Below are positions 2,016 through 36,822 of a DNA stretch of 64,000 nucleotides, piece after piece. The notes beneath the pieces were generated by a model, which was given only the letters and a program-made list of their open reading frames with translations, ran no database searches and was not told where the DNA came from. Each line of letters starts with the position of its first letter. The first letter of the stretch is position 1. The translations under genes and the position numbers were made by a program. Source of the DNA: Gardnerella vaginalis ATCC 14018 = JCM 11026 (GTDB taxonomy: Bacteria; Actinomycetota; Actinomycetes; Actinomycetales; Bifidobacteriaceae); assembly GCF_001042655.1 (NCBI RefSeq), contig NZ_AP012332.1:372001-436000 (forward strand). Reading direction: 5' to 3'.

Positions 2016-2729
2016 ATGGCTCGCATAAGTTTACATGATTTTGCTCCATCAGATGTTAACCGTGGACCGTGGATTCCAACCTCTCTTTCTAACAATCCTC
2101 GCGCAGGGCAGTGGTCCAGTGAGCGCATGAGCAAGGGAATGGTGGCTGATTATAAGCGATTTCTTATGACAGACGGCGAGGGAATTCGCTGCTCGCTTTA
2201 CGTTTCTGGCTGCCCATTCCATTGCGTTGAATGCTATAACGAGTCAATTTGGGATTTTCGCGCTGGTCACCCTTATACTCAAAAGCTCGAAGACCAAATT
2301 ATGGAAGATTTAGCGCAACCATATGTACAAGGATTGACGCTTCTTGGCGGTGAGCCGCTGCTTAACACTGGCATATTGATTCCACTATGTGAGCGTATTA
2401 GAAGCGAATTTGGCAATACAAAAGATATTTGGAGTTGGACTGGTTACACCTGGGAAGAGCTTATGCGACCGGGCGAGACTCCTGACAAGCTTGAGTTATT
2501 GCGATACATTGACATTCTTGTTGACGGGCGATATATGAAGAATCTTCACGATTCGCTATTGCAATTCCGTGGGTCTAGTAATCAGCGAATTATCGACGTG
2601 CCAAAGTCGCTGGAAAATCCACAAAATCCGCCTGTAATCTGGGAAAAGCTTCACGATCAAGAGCGTTTTATTCCATCAATCTACGGCAAGGATCGTGCAA
2701 AAGGCGAATCGACTTGCATGAGCGCTTAG
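2016..2729 (+). CDS. nrdG: Anaerobic ribonucleotide reductase activating protein (radical SAM)
   Basis: Radical SAM activase that generates the glycyl radical on NrdD using S-adenosylmethionine and a [4Fe-4S] cluster. The 237-residue protein has the cluster motif as SGCPFHCVECYN (C-x3-C-x2-C) near residue 70 and the GGEP motif as LLGGEPLL near residue 110. ATG 2016 is chosen because AGGAGGTGG lies just upstream. The N-terminus is longer than the roughly 155-residue E. coli protein, which is common in actinobacterial NrdG. It lies directly downstream of nrdD. The stop codon runs straight into a copy of repeat element A. Confidence 0.96.
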   Translation: MARISLHDFAPSDVNRGPWIPTSLSNNPRAGQWSSERMSKGMVADYKRFLMTDGEGIRCSLYVSGCPFHCVECYNESIWDFRAGHPYTQKLEDQIMEDLAQPYVQGLTLLGGEPLLNTGILIPLCERIRSEFGNTKDIWSWTGYTWEELMRPGETPDKLELLRYIDILVDGRYMKNLHDSLLQFRGSSNQRIIDVPKSLENPQNPPVIWEKLHDQERFIPSIYGKDRAKGESTCMSA

Positions 2730-2841
2730 AGCGTAGCGCGCGAATGTACTTCGATTCGCTGAGCCGCTCAAACGTAAAGTCCAGTGGACTTTACGTGCGG
2801 CGAAGACGCGAGCGCGCTTAGACCGCGCGAGCGATTTTCCT
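2730..2841 (+). repeat. Interspersed palindromic element A, copy A1
   Basis: Begins at the nrdG stop codon. Contains a hairpin built on GCGC-TTAGAGCGTA-GCGC, then CGCTGAGCCGCT, then a near-perfect palindrome with arms CGTAAAGTCC / GGACTTTACG, then GCGGCGAAGACG and a GCGCGAGCGA tail. The same order recurs at 10280, 20724 and, reversed, near 36640. The first hairpin is shortened compared with the other copies. Element B follows within 20 bp. Confidence 0.8.
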
Positions 2842-2856
2842 ACTTAGCGTTGCGAG

Positions 2857-3037
2857 AGGGCTGGCTAATTCTTGTCTCACAACGCTCTGCCTATTACGTG
2901 TAGTCTGTTGTTGCGGTTGTTCCGTTTTGGCTTTGATTTTGTTTTTTGTGTTGATGTTTGTTTGTAGTGGTGACTCATTGGATTGTTTGGTATCGGCTGC
3001 CGCTCTTATACTGTTCGACCAAGAATCACCCAGCCCT
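2857..3037 (+). repeat. Interspersed element B, copy B1 (181 bp, 18-bp terminal inverted repeats)
   Basis: The left end AGGGCTGGCTAATTCTTG (2857-2874) is inverted at the right end CAAGAATCACCCAGCCCT (3020-3037), with a few mismatches. A second copy of exactly the same length, nearly identical inside, lies at 15792-15972. Similarity continues about 55 bp beyond the right end. No transposase is encoded. It is either a MITE-like element or a structured RNA/leader closed by a terminal stem. Both copies lie upstream of ABC transporter genes. Confidence 0.75.
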
Positions 3038-3115
3038 ATTACATGCTAGAACAATTGCGTATCGCTTAAACACCGAGATTCTCGATTTTTCTTGTAGTGC
3101 GTTTGTACTCAAAAT

Positions 3116-10279: not shown

Positions 10280-10423
10280 CGCGCGACGACCTACCTTTTC
10301 GCTTAGAGCGTAGCGCGAAAAGGTAATTCGGAGCGCTGAGCCGCTTAGATCAGAAGCACTGCTTCTGCGCGGCGAAGACGTGAGCGCGCTGTAACGCGCG
10401 AGCGATTTCCTGAGAATGTTGTT
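10280..10423 (+). repeat. Interspersed palindromic element A, copy A2
   Basis: Starts right after the glmM stop. First hairpin: arms CCTTTTCGC / GCGAAAAGG around TTAGAGCGTA. Then AATTCGGAGCGCTGAGCCGCTTAG, a second hairpin with arms GCAGAAGCA / TGCTTCTGC, then GCGGCGAAGACG, GCGCGCTGTAACGCGCGAGCG and GAGAATGTTGTT. The closest copy is A3 (20724). Arm sequences differ from A1/A4 but stay complementary. Confidence 0.85.
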
Positions 10424-15729: not shown

Positions 15730-15752
15730 ATCGGAGCGAGCGCGCGAAATTC
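15730..15752 (+). repeat. Fragment of element A (copy A6, deletion remnant)
   Basis: TCGGAGCGAGCGCGCGAAA directly after the glycosyltransferase stop joins the middle (TCGGAGCG) and tail (GCGCGAGCG-like) of element A, as if the interior was deleted. Element B follows 40 bp later, the same A-then-B order as at 2730-3037. Confidence 0.4.
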
Positions 15753-15791
15753 TCTGTTTGGTGTTGCGCTACTTCCTGTTTGGTGTGTAGG

Positions 15792-15972
15792 AGGGCTGGG
15801 TGTTTCTTGTCTCACAACGCTTCGCCTCTTACGTGTAGTTTGTTGTTGCGGTTGTTCCGATTTGGTTTTGATTTTGTTTTTTGGTTGAAGTTTGTTTGTA
15901 GTGGTTGATCATTTGGATTATTTGGTATCGGCTGCCGCTCTTATATTGTTCGACCAAGAATCACCCAGCCCT
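15792..15972 (+). repeat. Interspersed element B, copy B2 (181 bp, 18-bp terminal inverted repeats)
   Basis: Left end AGGGCTGGGTGTTTCTTG (15792-15809); right end CAAGAATCACCCAGCCCT (15955-15972). The complementarity extends outward through GTAGG / CCTAC. The interior (CTCACAACGCT, TTGTTGCGGTTGTTCCG, TATCGGCTGCCGCTC) matches B1. Downstream similarity to B1 runs to about 16030, then a roughly 95-bp stretch absent from B1 (16031-16125) forms its own inverted repeat, with arms near GATTCTCGATTTTTC and GAAAAATCTCGAATC. Confidence 0.75.
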
Positions 15973-16237
15973 CCTACGTACTTGAACAATTGCGTATTGC
16001 TTAATCACTGAGATTCTCGATTTTTCTTGCTGCTTCAGCGAATCACCATCAAAGATGCTGAGGTTCGCTTCATCCGCTGCGAAAAATCTCGAATCTCTAC
16101 CTAGCTCGGTGTAATTTATGCAATCTCGTAGTGCGTTCATACGCAATATATGAGATAATAGAAGCCTTGATGTAAACGTGCGATTGCGCAATAATGTGGC
16201 GCAATACGTGCGTTTATCTGTGTATTGCGAGGTTTTT

Positions 16238-20723: not shown

Positions 20724-20867
20724 TGCGCGACGACCTGCCTTTTCGCTTAGAGCGTAGCGCGAAAAGGTAATTCGGAGTGCTGAGCCGCTTAATGCAGAAG
20801 CACTGCTTCTGTGCGGCGAAGACGTTCGCGCGCTGTAACGCGCGAGCGACTTACCGAGAATGTTGTT
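20724..20867 (+). repeat. Interspersed palindromic element A, copy A3
   Basis: Starts immediately after the dacB stop and closely matches A2 over its whole length: the CCTTTTCGC / GCGAAAAGG hairpin, CTGAGCCGCTTA, the GCAGAAGCA / TGCTTCTG hairpin, GCGGCGAAGACG, GCGCGCTGTAACGCGCGAGCG and GAGAATGTTGTT. Confidence 0.85.
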
Positions 20868-29656: not shown

Positions 29657-29795
29657 GTGCGCGAGTTGGGGTGAATCTGGTGCAAAGTACATCATGTCGT
29701 TCGCGCGCTACGCTTTAAGAGCTCATGCAGGTCGCGTCTCCCGTGTTTGTTTCTATTTTGCTCAAAAAGGGAACAAATGCGGGAATATTCTTACG
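29657..29795 (-). repeat. Interspersed element A, degenerate copy A5 (reverse orientation)
   Basis: TTCGCGCGCTACGCTTTAAG and GCAGGTC match copy A4, and the similarity continues outside the core (GTTTGTT, TTTGCTCAAA, AACAAA, GGGAATATTC). The second hairpin is missing. It lies downstream of the FemAB-type gene. Confidence 0.55.
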
Positions 29796-30180: not shown

Positions 30181-33100
30181 ATGACGAGTAAACAAAATAG
30201 CGCGAAACACATATCCATATCTAAAAAGTGCACAAAATCTTCGTACCTAGATAATTCTGTTATCGATTCAATGGCGAAATCGATTACGTCTACAAACTTT
30301 GAGGCAACTTCTTCTAGAAGGGTCTCTGTACTTCCTAAAATTGCTTTAACAGCAGTGCTAGCAAGTTTGCTTGCATGTGGAGCAGGATTGCCATCTAACC
30401 ATGCATGGGCTAATGGCGTGAATATGCCTGACGGCAGCTATAGGTATGCGAATCGTGATTCTTCTACAAAGGCGCAGAGGTATGTTGATATTAAAGCACT
30501 TCCTTGCGATAAGAATCAGGTAACTGATAAGAATAAGGCTGATAGAGAAACTTACGGACAGTATTACAAGGTCGAATACCAGTTTAATTCTCAGGGTGAA
30601 TGGTGGGGTGGTCGACCATTCTGGTGGGCGAGCGTGCCTAAGGATGTTGACATTGTAGATAATAAAGTTACTTTGCATAAAGATGAACAGTTGACTGGTG
30701 ATGGCGGTTCCAAACAAACAGGTGCAACATATGGAAAGGATGCTTGGAATCAGTCTGCAAGCCGTTTCTGGTTTAGTAAGAATACGGAGAAAACTGAGTT
30801 TGAGAATAACTGGAAGAGGATGACTGGTGAAGCCGGCGGTTATGACAACTCAGGTGATACTTACAATACTTCTACAGCATATATGAACGATACGAGTGCA
30901 CTAATTATTAACTGGGAGAGTAGGGGCAATAGAAAATCTAAGATTAGCTTTGTTATCAAACTGAAAGATAAAACGGAGCCTTTAAAGTTTGCTGCAGGTG
31001 TGTACCAGGTGATGGGCAACTGGCATTACACTGTTGGCAAAGTTGAGATTGCTCCAACGTTACCAAAGTATGCTCAGGAGTTAGAGCTTAATTATCCAAA
31101 TGATAAGGTAGAGGTTGATTCTGCGAAATATGGCAAGAGTCTTACGAAAGACGAAAAGGATAATGTTCTTACAAAGCTGTGGGATGCTAATAAGAGTAAT
31201 ACCGATGTGCTGAAAAAGCTTAAAGGTATGGAACAGACTCAAACTGAAGCGGATTTCAAAAAGGCTGTAAAAGTTAATAATGATGGTAGCGCGACTATTA
31301 CATACAAAGATGACTCTAAGGATACTATTTCTAAGGAGAATCTAACTAAGCGCTACGTGCCATTGTCAGAGCGCACAAAAATTACGTATCCAGCTTTGAC
31401 TCCTGTGAAGAATACGTCTTCTCTTGATTCAACAGAGAAGACGCAAGTTGAAAATGCTATTAAGAATGCTAATCAGAATAAAAATATCAAGAGTGTAACT
31501 GTTGATGGTAACGGTAAAGCGACTATCACGTTTGATGATAAAATTGGCACTCCTTCCACTAAGACAATTGAAGGCAAGTATCTTGTAAAGAAGCAGCGTT
31601 CACTTGCGGATAAGTTTACGCCATTATACGGGTTACCTATTGGTGTGAAGAATCCAAGTAGCCTTTCGCCTGATGACATCAAAAAAGTTCAGGAATCTAT
31701 ATACGATGCTAATAAAAATGTAAATGGATTCCTTGATGCTATAAGTAATAATAAAAATAACATTTCGATTGCAACTAATGGTGATGCAACAATTACTTAC
31801 AAGGATAACGAAAATAGCTTCCCTTCAAAAGATACTATTTCTCACACGTTATTAGTTTATAAGATACCATCTTTATCTGAGAGAGTGAAAATTGCTATGC
31901 CAAGCAGACTTGGTGTAAAGAATGCTGAAGATTTATCTTCACCAGAACAAAATGCAATTAAAGATAATATCAAAAAAGCTAATAAAGATCTCGATCAAAA
32001 TCTTAAGAAAGACGCTAATGCTATTAATGTAGGAAAAGATGGTACTACAACAATAACGTTCAGCGATGATAGTACTGTAAAAATTCGCGGCGAGCGTCTA
32101 GTTTATACGCAAGGTAAAAGCACTGCGCAAGGAACTCATAAAGTTACTACTGGAAAGTATACGTACAATATAACTCCTATTAAGGTGACCAATATTAATA
32201 ATATCGATGGAAATAATTGGGCTGATGCAGCTCGGCGTTTCATGTTCGATAATTATGATTGGACAAATAAAGGAACAGAATTTAATAAAATTAATCATAC
32301 TGAACCGCTTGCAATTGGTGGTAGTAATATAGCTAGCAACAATAAATGGGATCTAGAAAAACAGGCAAGTATATTCACTCCAAAGAGTGGCACTAACGGA
32401 TTAAAAATTAATGTTTGGGGTACACTTGGTATAACTAACATTGTGCATGGAAATAGTGGTATTGAGATTAGAGGTGCTAGTAGTACTTGGAATACTGATG
32501 ATTTGTACTTCACATTATCCAAAGATGATCTTTTCTATGCTGATGGACCAGCGTTTAATCCAGAAGACGAAAAGAAAAAGATTGATGATGCAATAGAGAA
32601 AGCTCTGAAAGATAAGGGATTCTCTGGAGATGAGCTTAATAAACTTAAGAATGAAATATCTAAAGATAAAGATGTTTTATCGGATAAAAACGGTATTAAA
32701 AAACAAGATGACGTTGATAAGCTTCTTAAGAAAATAGACGAGCTTGTTAATAAGAAGAAAGAAGAATCTGATAATAAAAAGCAGATTGATAAGGCTAAGA
32801 AGGATCTTGGTCTTGATGATAAGCAGAAAAAAGAGCTTGATGAACAGCTGAAAGGCGTAACTGATCCTGAAAAGATTCGTGAGAAGATAAACGAATTCCA
32901 GAAGAAGCAGGATCAGCAGAAGCAGACTGAGTCTGATGACAAGCAAAAAGAGGCTGATCAAAAGCAAAAGCAGGCTGTTCAAACTCAGCAGAATGCTGAT
33001 AATAAGACTGTCGACCAAAAGCAGCAGCAAGCTACTCAGGAGGAGAATACTTCTAATCAGCAAGCTGAAAAAGATAAGAAGACTGCTGAGCTTGAGAAGC

Positions 33101-36100
33101 AAAAGCAGGCTGCTATTGATGAAATTCGCAATGGTGAAGATTATAAAAATCTTACGCCTGATGATAAGAAGCAGTTTATTAAGAAGATTCAGCAGGCAAC
33201 TGATGAGAATGATATAAATACTATAAAGCAACAGGCTGCGGAAAAGGCTACTCAGAATCAGACTGCTTTTGATAACAGTAATAATAATGGTCTTGATACT
33301 GCTAAGCAAGCTGCTAAGGATACTATCGGTAAGCTTACTAATCTTAATGATACTGAAAAGCAGAAGTATCAGGGTGATATTGATAAAGCAAATAGTCTTG
33401 ATAAAGTTGCAGAGATTCTCAACAAAGCTGAGTTTGAGGATGCTAAAGCTGCAGCTAAGAAGAAGATTGCTGATCTGAAGCAGAAAGGTGATCTTACTGA
33501 TCAAGAAGCTACAGATCTAAATAATCGCATTGATAAAGCTAATGATTTGCGAGAAGTTGAGGGTATTCTTGAGGAAGCTGAGTTAAATAAAGCTAAGAGT
33601 GATGCTAAATCTGATGTAGATAAGCTCACGAATCTTAACAAAGCTCAAAAGGATGCTTTGAAGCAGAAAATTGATGATGTTGAAACTGATCCTACCAGCG
33701 ATAATTTGAAGACTGTTGATCAGGCTAAGACTGCCATCACTGCTGTTGTTGCTAAGGCTAAAGAGCTTGACAAGAAGATGAGTGATCTTAAGACTCTTGT
33801 TGATTTGGTCAATAAACAGAAAGAAACTCTTAAGAAGTCTGATGGCTACAAGGATACATCTAAGAAGAATGCTTTTGACACTGCATTAACAAATGCATCT
33901 ACTCTTGTTGATCTAACTAAGGGTACGAATGCTGATGGTGCCAAGGTTGATGAGACTAAGAACACATTAGAAAATGCTGTTAAGGATCTCGGTGGTAATA
34001 CTGTTGACAAGTCAAAGCTTCAGCGTGAAATTGAGACCGCTTATGAATGGCAAGGCAAGAATAAGCAGGGTAAAGATGATTCTTCTATAAAGAAGAATCC
34101 AAAGTATGAGAATGCTTCTAAAGATAAGAAGAATGATTTTGATACTGCTCTGTCTAATGCAAAGAAAGTTTATGACCAAAAAGATGCTTCACAGGTGTCT
34201 ATTAATGAGGCTGAATATAAGTTAAGCAAAGCAATTGATGCTCTTGATGGTCATAATAAATCTGATTTGAATGATGCCATAAAGAAAGCAAATTCAAAGA
34301 AATCTGAAATTGTTTACAATAACGCGTCAGAAGATAAGAAATCTGCTTTTGATGAAGCGTTAAGATATGCTGAGGAAATCGAAAAGAAGCTTGGCGCATC
34401 AGATGTTGAGATTAGTAAAGCAAAAGACGACTTGGATAAGGCACTTAACGATCTTAATGGTAAGGTTAAAACTTCTGATTTGGAAGCTGCTGTAGAAAAA
34501 GCAAAGAAAATGAGGAAGTCAACAACTGATCCTAAATCTGATGGCGATCCTAAGTATGAGAATGCTTCTCAAGAAAAGAAGCAAGCTGTTGATACGGCTC
34601 TCAATCGCGCTGAGTCTGCTCTTGCTGACGCTAATAATGATAAGTCAAAGAACACTCCTGAGCAAAAGCAGAAAGCTATTGATGAAGCATTAAATAAACT
34701 TAATGATGCTATTAGTAATCTTGATGGTGTTGACAAGACTAAGTTGACAGGAAAGCTTACGGAGGCAAAAGGTAAAAAGGGTACTCCTGCTTATAAGAAT
34801 GCTTCTAATACCAATAGTAAAGCGCTTGATGACGCTATAGCTTCTGCAGAAAATATCGTAAATAAAGCTGGTGCAACAGAGAAGGAAATTTCTGATGCTA
34901 TCAATAAGCTTACCAAAGCTATCGATGGTTTGGATGGTCATGATATTTCTGATTTGCATAACGCTGTTGATAATGCCAATACTAAGAAGTCTAAAGTGTC
35001 TTACAAGAATGCCAATCAAGATAAGCGAGATAATTTTGATAAGGCTCTGAAAGCTGCTGAAGAAATCTTGAAGAACCCTAATGGTAAGACTGAGCAGGCA
35101 ATAAAGACTGCTAAGGATAATCTTGAAATTGCATCGAACGAGCTGGATGGCGTTGTTGATACATCTAAGCTGCAGTCTGAAGTTACTAAGGATACTGATA
35201 TAAAGGATAAGCCGCAGTATAAGAATGCTGATAAAGATAAGCAGACTACTTTTGATCAGGCTCTTATCGAAGCTCAGAATGCTTTGAGTGAAGCGAAGAA
35301 CAATAAGTCTCAGAAGTCTCCTGAGGATAAGCAGAGTGCTGTTGACAATGCTTTGAAGAATCTTCAGACTGCTGCATCTTCGTTGAATGGTGCTGATATT
35401 AGTGCTTTGCAGGAAGAGATTGCTCTTGAAGGCACTGTGAGAATGTCTTCTGCGTACCTCTATGACACTTCGGATAAAAAGACTGCATATAATGATGCTT
35501 TGCAAGATGCGCGAGATCTCGTTTCAAAGTTGGCTGATATATCTGGTACTGGTAAAGATCTTGCTTCTAAGACTCAATCAGAGCGTCAAGCTCTTGTTGA
35601 TTCTGCTTTGAAGAAGCTCCAGCGGGCTAAGAATGCGTTGACTGGTGTAGCTCCTGCTCAGTCTCTGTCTCCAGTTATTCCTGTGAATCCAGAGTTTGAG
35701 CAAAAGCCTGTTCCAGTTCCAACTCCCGATACAACTCCAACTCCAGAGCAAACTCGTGATTCTGGTTTTGGTGTGAATGATAATGCGCCAGCTATTGTAG
35801 ATAAGGGCGAGTTGTATTTGCAGATCGAGGGTGCTGAATCCGATTCGCAATCTAGCGATAATGCAAATGGTTCGCAGCAGAACAATGTGGATGATAACTC
35901 TGGCAATTCTATTAATTCAGGGAATGTTAGCAAGAGTACAAATAGTGGTAATGGTGTCACCAGCAGTTCTGCTGCTAAGCAAGATAATGCATCCAATGAT
36001 AATGGATCACATGATGCAAATATCGATTCTGGTGTAGAGAATTCTCCAGCTGTTAAGCAGGCGGATATTGATGTTTCTAAGGCAAAATCTAATGTTGATA

Positions 36101-36450
36101 GTGCTTTGGCGGAAGCTAAAAAGGTAGCGGCCGATCCTCATAGCACTCAGGAACAAGTGAATGCTGCTGTTGAGAAGCTGAGTGCTGCGCGTAAGGCTTT
36201 GCTTGCTGCTAAGTCTCGTGCTTCGCAGGTTCGTGATGAGGTTCGTGCTCAGGTTATTAAGAATTCTAAGTCTGCTGGTATGCGTGCTTATTCGAATGCT
36301 GAAATGAGTAGTGATAGTAATAAGCGTGGAGAAATCAGTGGCATGAATACTGGTTCTGTTGTTGCTCCTACTGGGCTGCTGGCATCGCTTCTCGCTGCTG
36401 CTGGAGCGCTATTTGCTGCTCGTCGTGGTGGATTGCGCAAAAATAAGTAG
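30181..36450 (+). CDS. Giant cell-wall-anchored surface protein with GA and FIVAR-type modules
   Basis: A 2089-residue surface protein, probably an adhesin or matrix-forming protein. A long signal region ends in ALTAVLASLLACGAG and HAWA, with cleavage near residue 77. Then follow a Trp-rich N-domain (78-300), about four repeats of the LSDPEK-KA-DGT-TITF type (300-640), a further globular part, a Lys/Gln coiled coil (near 800-1035), about three GA-like three-helix modules (1037-1193; GA modules in other species bind albumin), and many FIVAR-type repeats (Y-NA--DKK-FD-AL; about 1195-1820). A Ser/Asn-rich linker leads to a sorting signal: APTG (2062-2065), a hydrophobic helix and RRGGLRKNK. The motif is APTG rather than LPxTG. 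ATG 30181 follows AAAGGGTGAAG. Confidence 0.88.
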   Translation: MTSKQNSAKHISISKKCTKSSYLDNSVIDSMAKSITSTNFEATSSRRVSVLPKIALTAVLASLLACGAGLPSNHAWANGVNMPDGSYRYANRDSSTKAQRYVDIKALPCDKNQVTDKNKADRETYGQYYKVEYQFNSQGEWWGGRPFWWASVPKDVDIVDNKVTLHKDEQLTGDGGSKQTGATYGKDAWNQSASRFWFSKNTEKTEFENNWKRMTGEAGGYDNSGDTYNTSTAYMNDTSALIINWESRGNRKSKISFVIKLKDKTEPLKFAAGVYQVMGNWHYTVGKVEIAPTLPKYAQELELNYPNDKVEVDSAKYGKSLTKDEKDNVLTKLWDANKSNTDVLKKLKGMEQTQTEADFKKAVKVNNDGSATITYKDDSKDTISKENLTKRYVPLSERTKITYPALTPVKNTSSLDSTEKTQVENAIKNANQNKNIKSVTVDGNGKATITFDDKIGTPSTKTIEGKYLVKKQRSLADKFTPLYGLPIGVKNPSSLSPDDIKKVQESIYDANKNVNGFLDAISNNKNNISIATNGDATITYKDNENSFPSKDTISHTLLVYKIPSLSERVKIAMPSRLGVKNAEDLSSPEQNAIKDNIKKANKDLDQNLKKDANAINVGKDGTTTITFSDDSTVKIRGERLVYTQGKSTAQGTHKVTTGKYTYNITPIKVTNINNIDGNNWADAARRFMFDNYDWTNKGTEFNKINHTEPLAIGGSNIASNNKWDLEKQASIFTPKSGTNGLKINVWGTLGITNIVHGNSGIEIRGASSTWNTDDLYFTLSKDDLFYADGPAFNPEDEKKKIDDAIEKALKDKGFSGDELNKLKNEISKDKDVLSDKNGIKKQDDVDKLLKKIDELVNKKKEESDNKKQIDKAKKDLGLDDKQKKELDEQLKGVTDPEKIREKINEFQKKQDQQKQTESDDKQKEADQKQKQAVQTQQNADNKTVDQKQQQATQEENTSNQQAEKDKKTAELEKQKQAAIDEIRNGEDYKNLTPDDKKQFIKKIQQATDENDINTIKQQAAEKATQNQTAFDNSNNNGLDTAKQAAKDTIGKLTNLNDTEKQKYQGDIDKANSLDKVAEILNKAEFEDAKAAAKKKIADLKQKGDLTDQEATDLNNRIDKANDLREVEGILEEAELNKAKSDAKSDVDKLTNLNKAQKDALKQKIDDVETDPTSDNLKTVDQAKTAITAVVAKAKELDKKMSDLKTLVDLVNKQKETLKKSDGYKDTSKKNAFDTALTNASTLVDLTKGTNADGAKVDETKNTLENAVKDLGGNTVDKSKLQREIETAYEWQGKNKQGKDDSSIKKNPKYENASKDKKNDFDTALSNAKKVYDQKDASQVSINEAEYKLSKAIDALDGHNKSDLNDAIKKANSKKSEIVYNNASEDKKSAFDEALRYAEEIEKKLGASDVEISKAKDDLDKALNDLNGKVKTSDLEAAVEKAKKMRKSTTDPKSDGDPKYENASQEKKQAVDTALNRAESALADANNDKSKNTPEQKQKAIDEALNKLNDAISNLDGVDKTKLTGKLTEAKGKKGTPAYKNASNTNSKALDDAIASAENIVNKAGATEKEISDAINKLTKAIDGLDGHDISDLHNAVDNANTKKSKVSYKNANQDKRDNFDKALKAAEEILKNPNGKTEQAIKTAKDNLEIASNELDGVVDTSKLQSEVTKDTDIKDKPQYKNADKDKQTTFDQALIEAQNALSEAKNNKSQKSPEDKQSAVDNALKNLQTAASSLNGADISALQEEIALEGTVRMSSAYLYDTSDKKTAYNDALQDARDLVSKLADISGTGKDLASKTQSERQALVDSALKKLQRAKNALTGVAPAQSLSPVIPVNPEFEQKPVPVPTPDTTPTPEQTRDSGFGVNDNAPAIVDKGELYLQIEGAESDSQSSDNANGSQQNNVDDNSGNSINSGNVSKSTNSGNGVTSSSAAKQDNASNDNGSHDANIDSGVENSPAVKQADIDVSKAKSNVDSALAEAKKVAADPHSTQEQVNAAVEKLSAARKALLAAKSRASQVRDEVRAQVIKNSKSAGMRAYSNAEMSSDSNKRGEISGMNTGSVVAPTGLLASLLAAAGALFAARRGGLRKNK

Positions 36451-36599: not shown

Positions 36600-36822
36600 A
36601 TGGGGTGAATATGGCGTAGGGTGTGTTTCGACGTTAGCGCGGTTTAAGTGCGCTCACGTCTTTGCCGCACGTAAAGTCCACTGGACTTTACGTTTGAGCG
36701 GCTCAGCGCTCCGAATTGCCTTCGCGCGCTACGCTTTAAGCGCGAAGGCAGGTCTCGCGCCCGCGTTTGTTGTCGTATTTGCTCAAATGATAAACAAACT
36801 TGGGAAAATATTCCTTTAGGAT
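36600..36822 (-). repeat. Interspersed palindromic element A, copy A4 (reverse orientation)
   Basis: Read on the minus strand: GCCTTCGCGC / GCGCGAAGGC hairpin around TTAAAGCGTA, AATTCGGAGCGCTGAGCCGC, a palindrome with arms CGTAAAGTCC / GGACTTTACG as in A1, then GCGGCAAAGACGTGAGCGC. The core is 36640-36770; weaker similarity to A5 extends on both sides. Confidence 0.8.

Follow-up and report, generated by a model that had tools for sequence, protein, structure and literature searches.

Element A of Gardnerella, a genus-specific repeat of three exchangeable hairpins that may be under selection for how one strand folds

Small interspersed repeats are often regarded as selfish DNA with incidental folds. 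A hairpin repeat at position 10,280 of a stretch of the Gardnerella vaginalis ATCC 14018 chromosome raises the question of whether its sequence is maintained for its shape and, if so, in which nucleic acid. The window, meaning the whole stretch of 64,000 nucleotides that was analyzed, is C1:372001-436000, part of a single contig of 1,667,406 bases. The original prediction, made from the letters of the window, held that the repeat occurs in several copies with the same order of parts, that its structure is under selection, and that it may be either a REPIN-like palindromic element or an RNA structure in the 3' untranslated regions of mRNAs. The genus is of medical interest and few transposases have been reported in it; the accessible part of PMC2928729 discusses both competence and the paucity of transposases in Gardnerella. 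The repeat family, here termed element A, offers over 130 natural variants that separate sequence from shape. If shape is what persists, nature has already provided in these repeats a mutational scan of a structure in RNA (or single-stranded DNA). Element A may also explain much of the fast-changing intergenic DNA separating Gardnerella species.

Copies in the window and in the genus

A unit of element A is ∼130 bases long (about 125–135) and consists of three hairpins, H1, H2, and H3. Four full copies, A1 to A4, are detected in the window by a covariance model with scores of 119–145 bits, which confirms a multi-copy repeat with a shared order of parts in a family larger than had been noted. 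A1 (2704-2834, forward strand; covariance model and profile; RNA fold z -4.1) contains a type II H1 beginning with GCGAATCGA, an H2 with the arms CCGC/CGTAAAGTCC, and an H3 with the loop TTAGACC. A2 (10281-10405, forward) displays the complete architecture, with hairpins located by fold and covariance model and linkers by alignment, all on the forward strand. Its H1 (10281-10336) reads GCGC / GA.GA / CGA / 2x2 loop / ACCTTTTCGC with the conserved loop TTAGAGCGTAGC, and the linker TGA (10337-10339) leads to H2 (10340-10373), in which GCCGC..GCGGC encloses a 5' bulge and the inner arm CAGAAGC/GCTTCTG. The linker GAAGA (10374-10378) is followed by H3 (10379-10404), CGT GA GCGCG..CGCGC GA GCG, with a tandem GA/GA step. 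The remaining full copies are A3 (20725-20849, forward) and A4 (36631-36760, reverse; RNA fold z -4.5 for the stretch 36634-36765). The arm pairs predicted for hairpins 1 and 2 are present in the copies. A5, proposed as a degenerate copy, is recovered by the profile search as a remnant of H1 alone (29698-29736, reverse), and for the supposed fragment at 15730 a search with the family profile gives no match at E 1e-3; a copy of another repeat, element M, follows it at 15791-15973. Repeats are also present at about 32900-36450 of the window within a long open frame of 2125 aa, perhaps that of a repeat-rich surface protein.

Identification of further copies in the same genome relied on several searches. 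A BLAST search with A2 has 50 matches listed with E up to 1, and the best 40 of 45 first-look candidates were scored. A profile made from element A copies, searched over the window and 26 stretches round BLAST matches, gives 55 matches, part of which are the palindromic H1 read on the opposite strand; 31 complete copies were retained, and 3 strong incomplete matches and 21 weaker ones (partials and opposite-strand H1) were dropped. The 16-base core GCTTARAGCGTAGCGC has 30 exact sites and 13 near ones (7 with one mismatch and 6 with two), compared with 1 site for the reversed-pattern control. Element A copies are mostly 53–63% G+C (range 45–65% among covariance-model matches), and the chromosome of G. 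vaginalis JCM 11026T is 41.4% G+C (PMC4392161).

The covariance model, which had been proposed together with the prediction, used 20 of the 31 complete copies and a structure given by hand from folds and alignments. At E 1e-5 it has matches in 14 of 112 genus-group genomes, 12 of which contain from 11 to at least 30 matches each, with up to 30 candidates scored per genome. The two others, larger genomes of the genus group (G140 and G148), have one borderline match each (E 5e-6 and 7e-6), which may represent chance. Across the family, a BLAST search with A2 has matches in 9 of 151 genomes, two of them over 23 bases only. In a collection of 84,980 species, an exact 19-base core is found in 53 stretches, a count that may lack entries from the genome of the window itself, and all 53 are titled Gardnerella or Bifidobacteriaceae bacterium NR021/NR047. 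Within the collections searched, the family is specific to Gardnerella, with dozens of copies per chromosome. Comparison of the window and of four loci with other hairpin versions against Rfam 15 revealed no matching family, so no RNA family of that collection accounts for the repeat. No description of interspersed repeats in Gardnerella was found in the open-access texts searched, and the word 'repeat' is absent from the accessible part of PMC2928729.

Three hairpins that keep their plan as their sequences change

The common plan begins with an H1 composed of a 9-bp stem, a 2x2 internal loop, and a ∼10-bp stem, capped in types I and II by the conserved loop TTARAGCGTAGC. A linker of TGA or CGA, missing in some species, separates H1 from H2, which consists of 5–9 bp, usually a four-base 5' bulge of the UYAR type (TCAA, TTAA, TTAG, and similar), 8–11 bp, and usually a three-base loop. 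After a linker of GAAGA or similar, H3 has an outer and an inner stem, the latter of ∼5 bp, separated by a two-base step of either tandem GA or Watson–Crick type, and ends in a short loop; among 140 copies the step is GA/GA in 75, TC/GA in 26, CT/AG in 8, TA/TA in 4, CC/GG in 2, and other in the rest. This plan is recovered by folding sequences one at a time, independently of the structure given by hand. With 3 of 133 sequences excluded by length, exactly three hairpins form in 122 of 130 distinct sequences, at a mean z of -6.0 against dinucleotide shuffles; the two-tier H2 with a 3–5-base bulge and the expected H3 are each found in 105 of the 130.

Covariation was assessed in the 140 model matches from the window and 99 of 212 loci, which provide 133 distinct rows and 45 counted pairs. 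Pairing is preserved in 90.5% of 5860 cells, compared with 73.7% in shuffled and 24.7–47.0% in slid alignments. Both sides have changed in 38 of the 45 pairs, as against 29.6 in shuffles; for the covariation score the corresponding values are 0.456 and 0.159. On each of five measures, the observed value exceeds the slid controls and is reached by 0 of 500 shuffles, which ignore the relatedness of the rows. A limitation of these numbers is that the alignment was fitted to the structure, which inflates pair counts, and that the rows are related and the cells are not independent events; the values are therefore not probabilities. RNAalifold on a MAFFT alignment reports 19 pairs only, 6 of them with a double change, because MAFFT misaligns the type III H1 and the versions of H2, and the structure was for this reason supplied to the covariance model by hand.

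Two further comparisons depend less on these counts. Among 149 comparisons of modules that differ at exactly two bases, 15 have both differences in a single pair (3 of 54 for H1, 6 of 48 for H2, and 6 of 47 for H3), compared with about 4 of 149 by our rough estimate of the expectation. The two arms of one helix, though bases to tens of bases apart, have a normalized mutual information of 0.71–1.0, computed with module versions that occur at least three times. The basal arm of H2 and the neighboring arm of H3 are at 0.36, other cross-hairpin pairs at 0.29–0.57, and shuffled values at 0.10–0.29. Along one side of a hairpin, the basal and inner segments (0.66–0.72) are as closely tied as the two base arms of H1 (0.71), which makes the whole hairpin, and not the pair, the unit of linkage. 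Broken helices do occur in some copies, as in the copy at 192087, whose H1 is half type I and half type II; the structure is hence not indispensable everywhere.

The mismatches differ between the strands. A palindrome kept as double-stranded DNA would show no choice of strand. Over all pairs, G.U cells number 134 and A.C cells 43, GA/AG cells 447 and TC/CT cells 15, and tandem GA/GA steps 178 and TC/TC steps 0, with the GA/GA cells stemming from few columns and related rows. Single-base differences across H1–H3 give 28 GU and 14 AC, with H2 alone reversed (4 and 7). Beside C–G pairs, tandem 5'-GA-3' steps are known for their stability in RNA, and DNA can form them too. In terms of folding energy, the z of A2 is -2.6 for the reverse strand, close to the -3.0 of the sense strand; the sense strand is the more stable in 115 of 130 sequences, an excess that is partly due to composition, since 100 shuffled sequences also lean 67 to 32. 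The strand bias of the mismatches argues that one folded strand is favored, most simply as RNA.

Hairpins with unrelated sequences show the same plan. Element B (for example, at 124667-124806 of the same genome, reverse strand) aligns with A1 over one 33-base stretch round the tip of H2 and over scraps of 7–9 bases. Its fold follows the plan of element A, with 9 bp and a 2x2 loop, an H2 with a four-base bulge and a triloop, and an H3 with GA/GA, and the model based on element A recovers five B copies at 53–64 bits, aided by the common H2 tip. In type V copies, an H1 of 9 bp with a 2x2 loop and an H2 with a four-base bulge are kept despite unrelated sequence. Whole hairpins are exchanged between copies: two copies (L120:4660 and L126:1281) combine the H1 of B with the H2 and H3 of A, two (L111 and L153) harbor a third unrelated H1 sequence, and other versions of H2 and H3 are present in G. 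greenwoodii (L081) and in NR010 (L118), the H2 of the latter showing a 2x2 loop in place of the four-base bulge when folded alone. Keyword typing distinguishes 58 module combinations among the 140 copies, all in the fixed order H1–H2–H3. At the orthologous site of 147048, G185, the closest among the relatives compared, retains the flank and H2 and carries a different H3 and H1. Hybrids within a hairpin that break the pairing (192087 and L132:1013) reveal that exchange is not perfectly restrained. Relative to known repeats, the new feature is that hairpins unrelated in sequence keep the same loops and bulges, together with a strand preference. Modeled folds of hairpins that have been swapped or rewritten in sequence, with much the same shape, point to a shape-dependent role, probably in RNA. 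The predicted selection for structure is supported by the covariation in 133 distinct rows, the single folds, the strand-biased mismatches, and the common plan of unrelated hairpins.

Gene ends, host repeats, and turnover of sites

The genomic neighborhood was examined for 138 copies (140 less 2 repeats) with genes called by a simple script; the copies are not independent, and 36 that lacked a called gene on one or both sides were excluded. The remaining 102 copies are located between co-oriented genes (44), against the direction of both (26), or in convergent (23) and divergent (9) gaps. Intergenic space in the reference stretches amounts to 51,580, 12,426, and 5,241 bp for tandem, convergent, and divergent gaps, and compared with it no class of gap is strongly preferred. 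The gene upstream is co-oriented in 67 of the 102 copies (one-sided p 0.001, on non-independent copies) and in 44 of 70 within tandem gaps alone (p 0.02). Counting all copies, 79 have an upstream gene in the same orientation; 25 of them begin within -33 to +8 bases of the end of that gene's stop codon. As judged by flanks, these 25 include one site in three species (L092, L115, and L154) and one site in two (L073 and L025:9557). For the 58 copies with a 3' end directed at an opposite-strand stop codon, no such adjacency is seen, and the distance is never below 32 bases.

Where the distance is negative, the stop codon belongs wholly or partly to the element. The expectation that A1, A2, and A3 begin at or near a stop codon is accurate for A2 and A3, each one base past it; in A1 the upstream reading frame extends 26 bases into the element and terminates on a TAG within H1, so that the element replaces the 3' end of the gene. 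At the A1 site of G185, a relative, the gene ends differently and element A is absent. The suggestion of a 3' untranslated structure is partly supported, by the copies that begin at a stop codon and the 67 that follow a co-oriented gene, but 35 of 102 follow a gene on the other strand. Two genomes (G075 and G069) have at the site of the window copy at 10280 (L064 and L067) a different hairpin repeat, CTTTGTACGTGATTTGGGTCAAATTTGGTACAAAG and close versions of it, arranged in tandem shortly past the same stop codon. Adjacency to stop codons is therefore common to unrelated repeats.

Element A is also nested in other repeats. Element M, which is MITE-like, has inverted ends (GAGGGCTGGSTRWTTCT) at 21 genome loci, mostly 164–167 bases apart. 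In the window, a copy with ends beginning GAGGGCTGG is located at 2856-3038 (forward) shortly after A1, and a second at 15791-15973 (forward). Four M copies have ends 285–288 bases apart, compared with 164–167 in 13 others, and contain a nested A. Element C, a long hairpin GAGATTCTCGATTTTTC..GAAAAATCTCGAATCTC, has no A inside it at 16010-16097 of the window (forward; ends assigned by eye) and elsewhere hosts A in its apical part at several places. At 367005, B is nested within A, and G185 offers no B-free orthologue of this site.

The turnover of sites is rapid. When 18 sites of the genome were compared with G185, for some of which the G185 stretches lacked one or both flanks, only 252204 aligned straight through the element, with a single difference inside it that turns a G–C pair into G.U. 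At the other sites, matched flanks are 90–99% alike and the hairpin repeats between them differ. Since MAFFT pairs are unreliable for unequal regions, A2, 101839, and 246464 were read by eye. Individual copies therefore seem short-lived, which is a poor fit with an essential role for each. No clean empty site was found for a lone A copy, as neighboring species hold other hairpin repeats there and the sites in G185 are occupied by other repeats. With regard to a target-site duplication, no common flank of the copies is visible by eye. Remnants of a coding insertion sequence were considered and rejected; flanks differ between most copies, and no common coding element accompanies them.

Weighing the explanations

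With about even confidence, we interpret element A as a Gardnerella-specific, modular, non-autonomous interspersed repeat in which selection would act on the folding of a single strand, most simply as RNA. The strand bias would also follow if one strand of DNA were read, as in a mobile single-stranded DNA element, REPIN-like or IS200/IS605-like, whose hairpins are substrates of an HUH or other enzyme that recognizes DNA shape, with no role in RNA. The copy number and nested positions look mobile, a T precedes the 5' end in 77 of 138 copies, and GACG, a candidate tag as the complement of CGTC, is seen by eye in the alignment at the foot of H3 in many copies; REPs tagged with CGTC are reported without a dedicated transposase in the accessible part of PMC3733652. 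The RAYT-type domain Y1_Tnp (PF01797, E 1e-3), however, is detected in 0 of 12 genomes, with the control positive in 5 of 14 reference genomes. As for a retroelement, a reverse transcriptase domain is present in only 1 of the 12, the window's own genome (C1:1142897-1143295, in a 509-aa frame), whereas all 12 contain the family. There is no fixed flank on either side in 138 flank sets, and the hairpins are interchangeable, whereas the cleavage reported for RAYT is at a set GTAG motif (accessible part of PMC3733652). A single-stranded DNA element is thus fairly unlikely, and its REPIN-like form, which the original prediction had raised, is not supported, three different hairpins in fixed order not being a pair of REPs. 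Upkeep of palindromes without any function, in which template switching perfects hairpins and recombination moves whole ones, would produce the cassette-like swaps of complete hairpins, the linkage by hairpin, and crossover hybrids in the conserved H2 tip such as L132:1013. This process does not predict the imperfections conserved in unrelated hairpins, namely the 2x2 loop of H1, the bulge of H2, and the tandem GA of H3, nor a ratio of GA/GA to TC/TC of 178 to 0, nor same-pair compensation at 15 of 149 rather than roughly 4, and we consider it unlikely.

Two further explanations involve RNA. A family of transcription terminators located after genes would be consistent with strong GC-rich hairpins, with the 25 of 79 sense copies that adjoin stop codons, and with the TTTT that follows single copies such as A1. 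However, a T-tract after H3 is not general, the T count peaking at 59 of 138 within the first ten downstream columns, in which element A differs from intrinsic terminators; three hairpins exceed what a terminator needs, and many copies are located elsewhere, all of which renders this explanation improbable. Functional non-coding RNA genes with their own promoters that act in trans would account for the tight architecture and the conserved loop of types I and II, yet the last 26 upstream bases contain no common sequence as a candidate promoter and sites turn over rapidly, and this role is very improbable.

Returning to selection for the fold of one strand, the closest known system in behavior is the BOX repeat of streptococci, a comparison made by description rather than by sequence. 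According to the accessible part of PMC3049150, BOX elements are modular intergenic repeats of 67–637 bp with predicted RNA folds that are clustered and found inside other repeats; they are expressed at several pneumococcal loci, are thought to act on co-transcribed genes, and have terminal inverted repeats, target duplications, and a variable number of one boxB module. Like BOX, element A is modular with ordered modules that vary between copies. It differs in that its three hairpins are distinct, keep one order, and each occur in several versions unrelated in sequence, and in that no terminal repeats were seen. REP, BIME, and REPIN sequences, as described in the accessible part of PMC3733652, are likewise high-copy extragenic palindromes, mostly downstream of genes and plausibly transcribed. 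A REP is a unit of 20–40 bases with a GTAG or CGTC tag and one hairpin, and REPINs are inverted pairs of such units; element A instead has about 130 bases, three hairpins, and no Y1 transposase. With MITEs (features as given in the accessible part of PMC3049150), it has in common that it is non-autonomous, multi-copy, and strongly folded; it differs in being GC-rich and in that its ends, GCGCGACG.. and ..GCGAGCGA, are by eye not inverted copies, M being the MITE-like one. It resembles the families of Rfam 15 in a covariation-supported, RNA-like fold, differing from them in the lack of a match. The best reading is that of a BOX-like structured repeat, genus-specific and recombination-shuffled, with selection for the sense-strand fold.

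Under selection for the sense-strand fold, a stack of three hairpins right past a stop codon would be located at the 3' end of an mRNA, where it could limit 3'-end decay or read-through; alternatively, a factor that recognizes its shape rather than its sequence may bind it. A bolder version, which we put forward only tentatively, is a dispersed RNA in which shape alone is inherited, so that hairpins could be replaced singly by unrelated sequence and a geometry-reading factor would act on dozens of mRNA 3' ends per cell. The geometry kept would then be, equally tentatively, the length of the helices, the 2x2 loop in H1, the UYAR bulge in H2, and the tandem-GA step in H3.

Copies of element A may spread through recombination between repeats and natural transformation, with no transposase of their own, and hitch-hiking inside the MITE-like element M could provide a further route; copies with a foldable sense strand would be those that survive. 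The distribution of both repeats along the chromosome is uneven. A and M are confined to about 67–485 kb and 990–1426 kb, and with dnaA at 571, the voids are one on the side of the origin and one on the side of the terminus. In a placement test that was picked after the gaps had been noticed, the largest A gap (580,607 bases) was equalled in 10 of 100,000 random placements of 32 loci with at most one mismatch, and the two largest together (580,607 plus 320,734) in 0 of 100,000.
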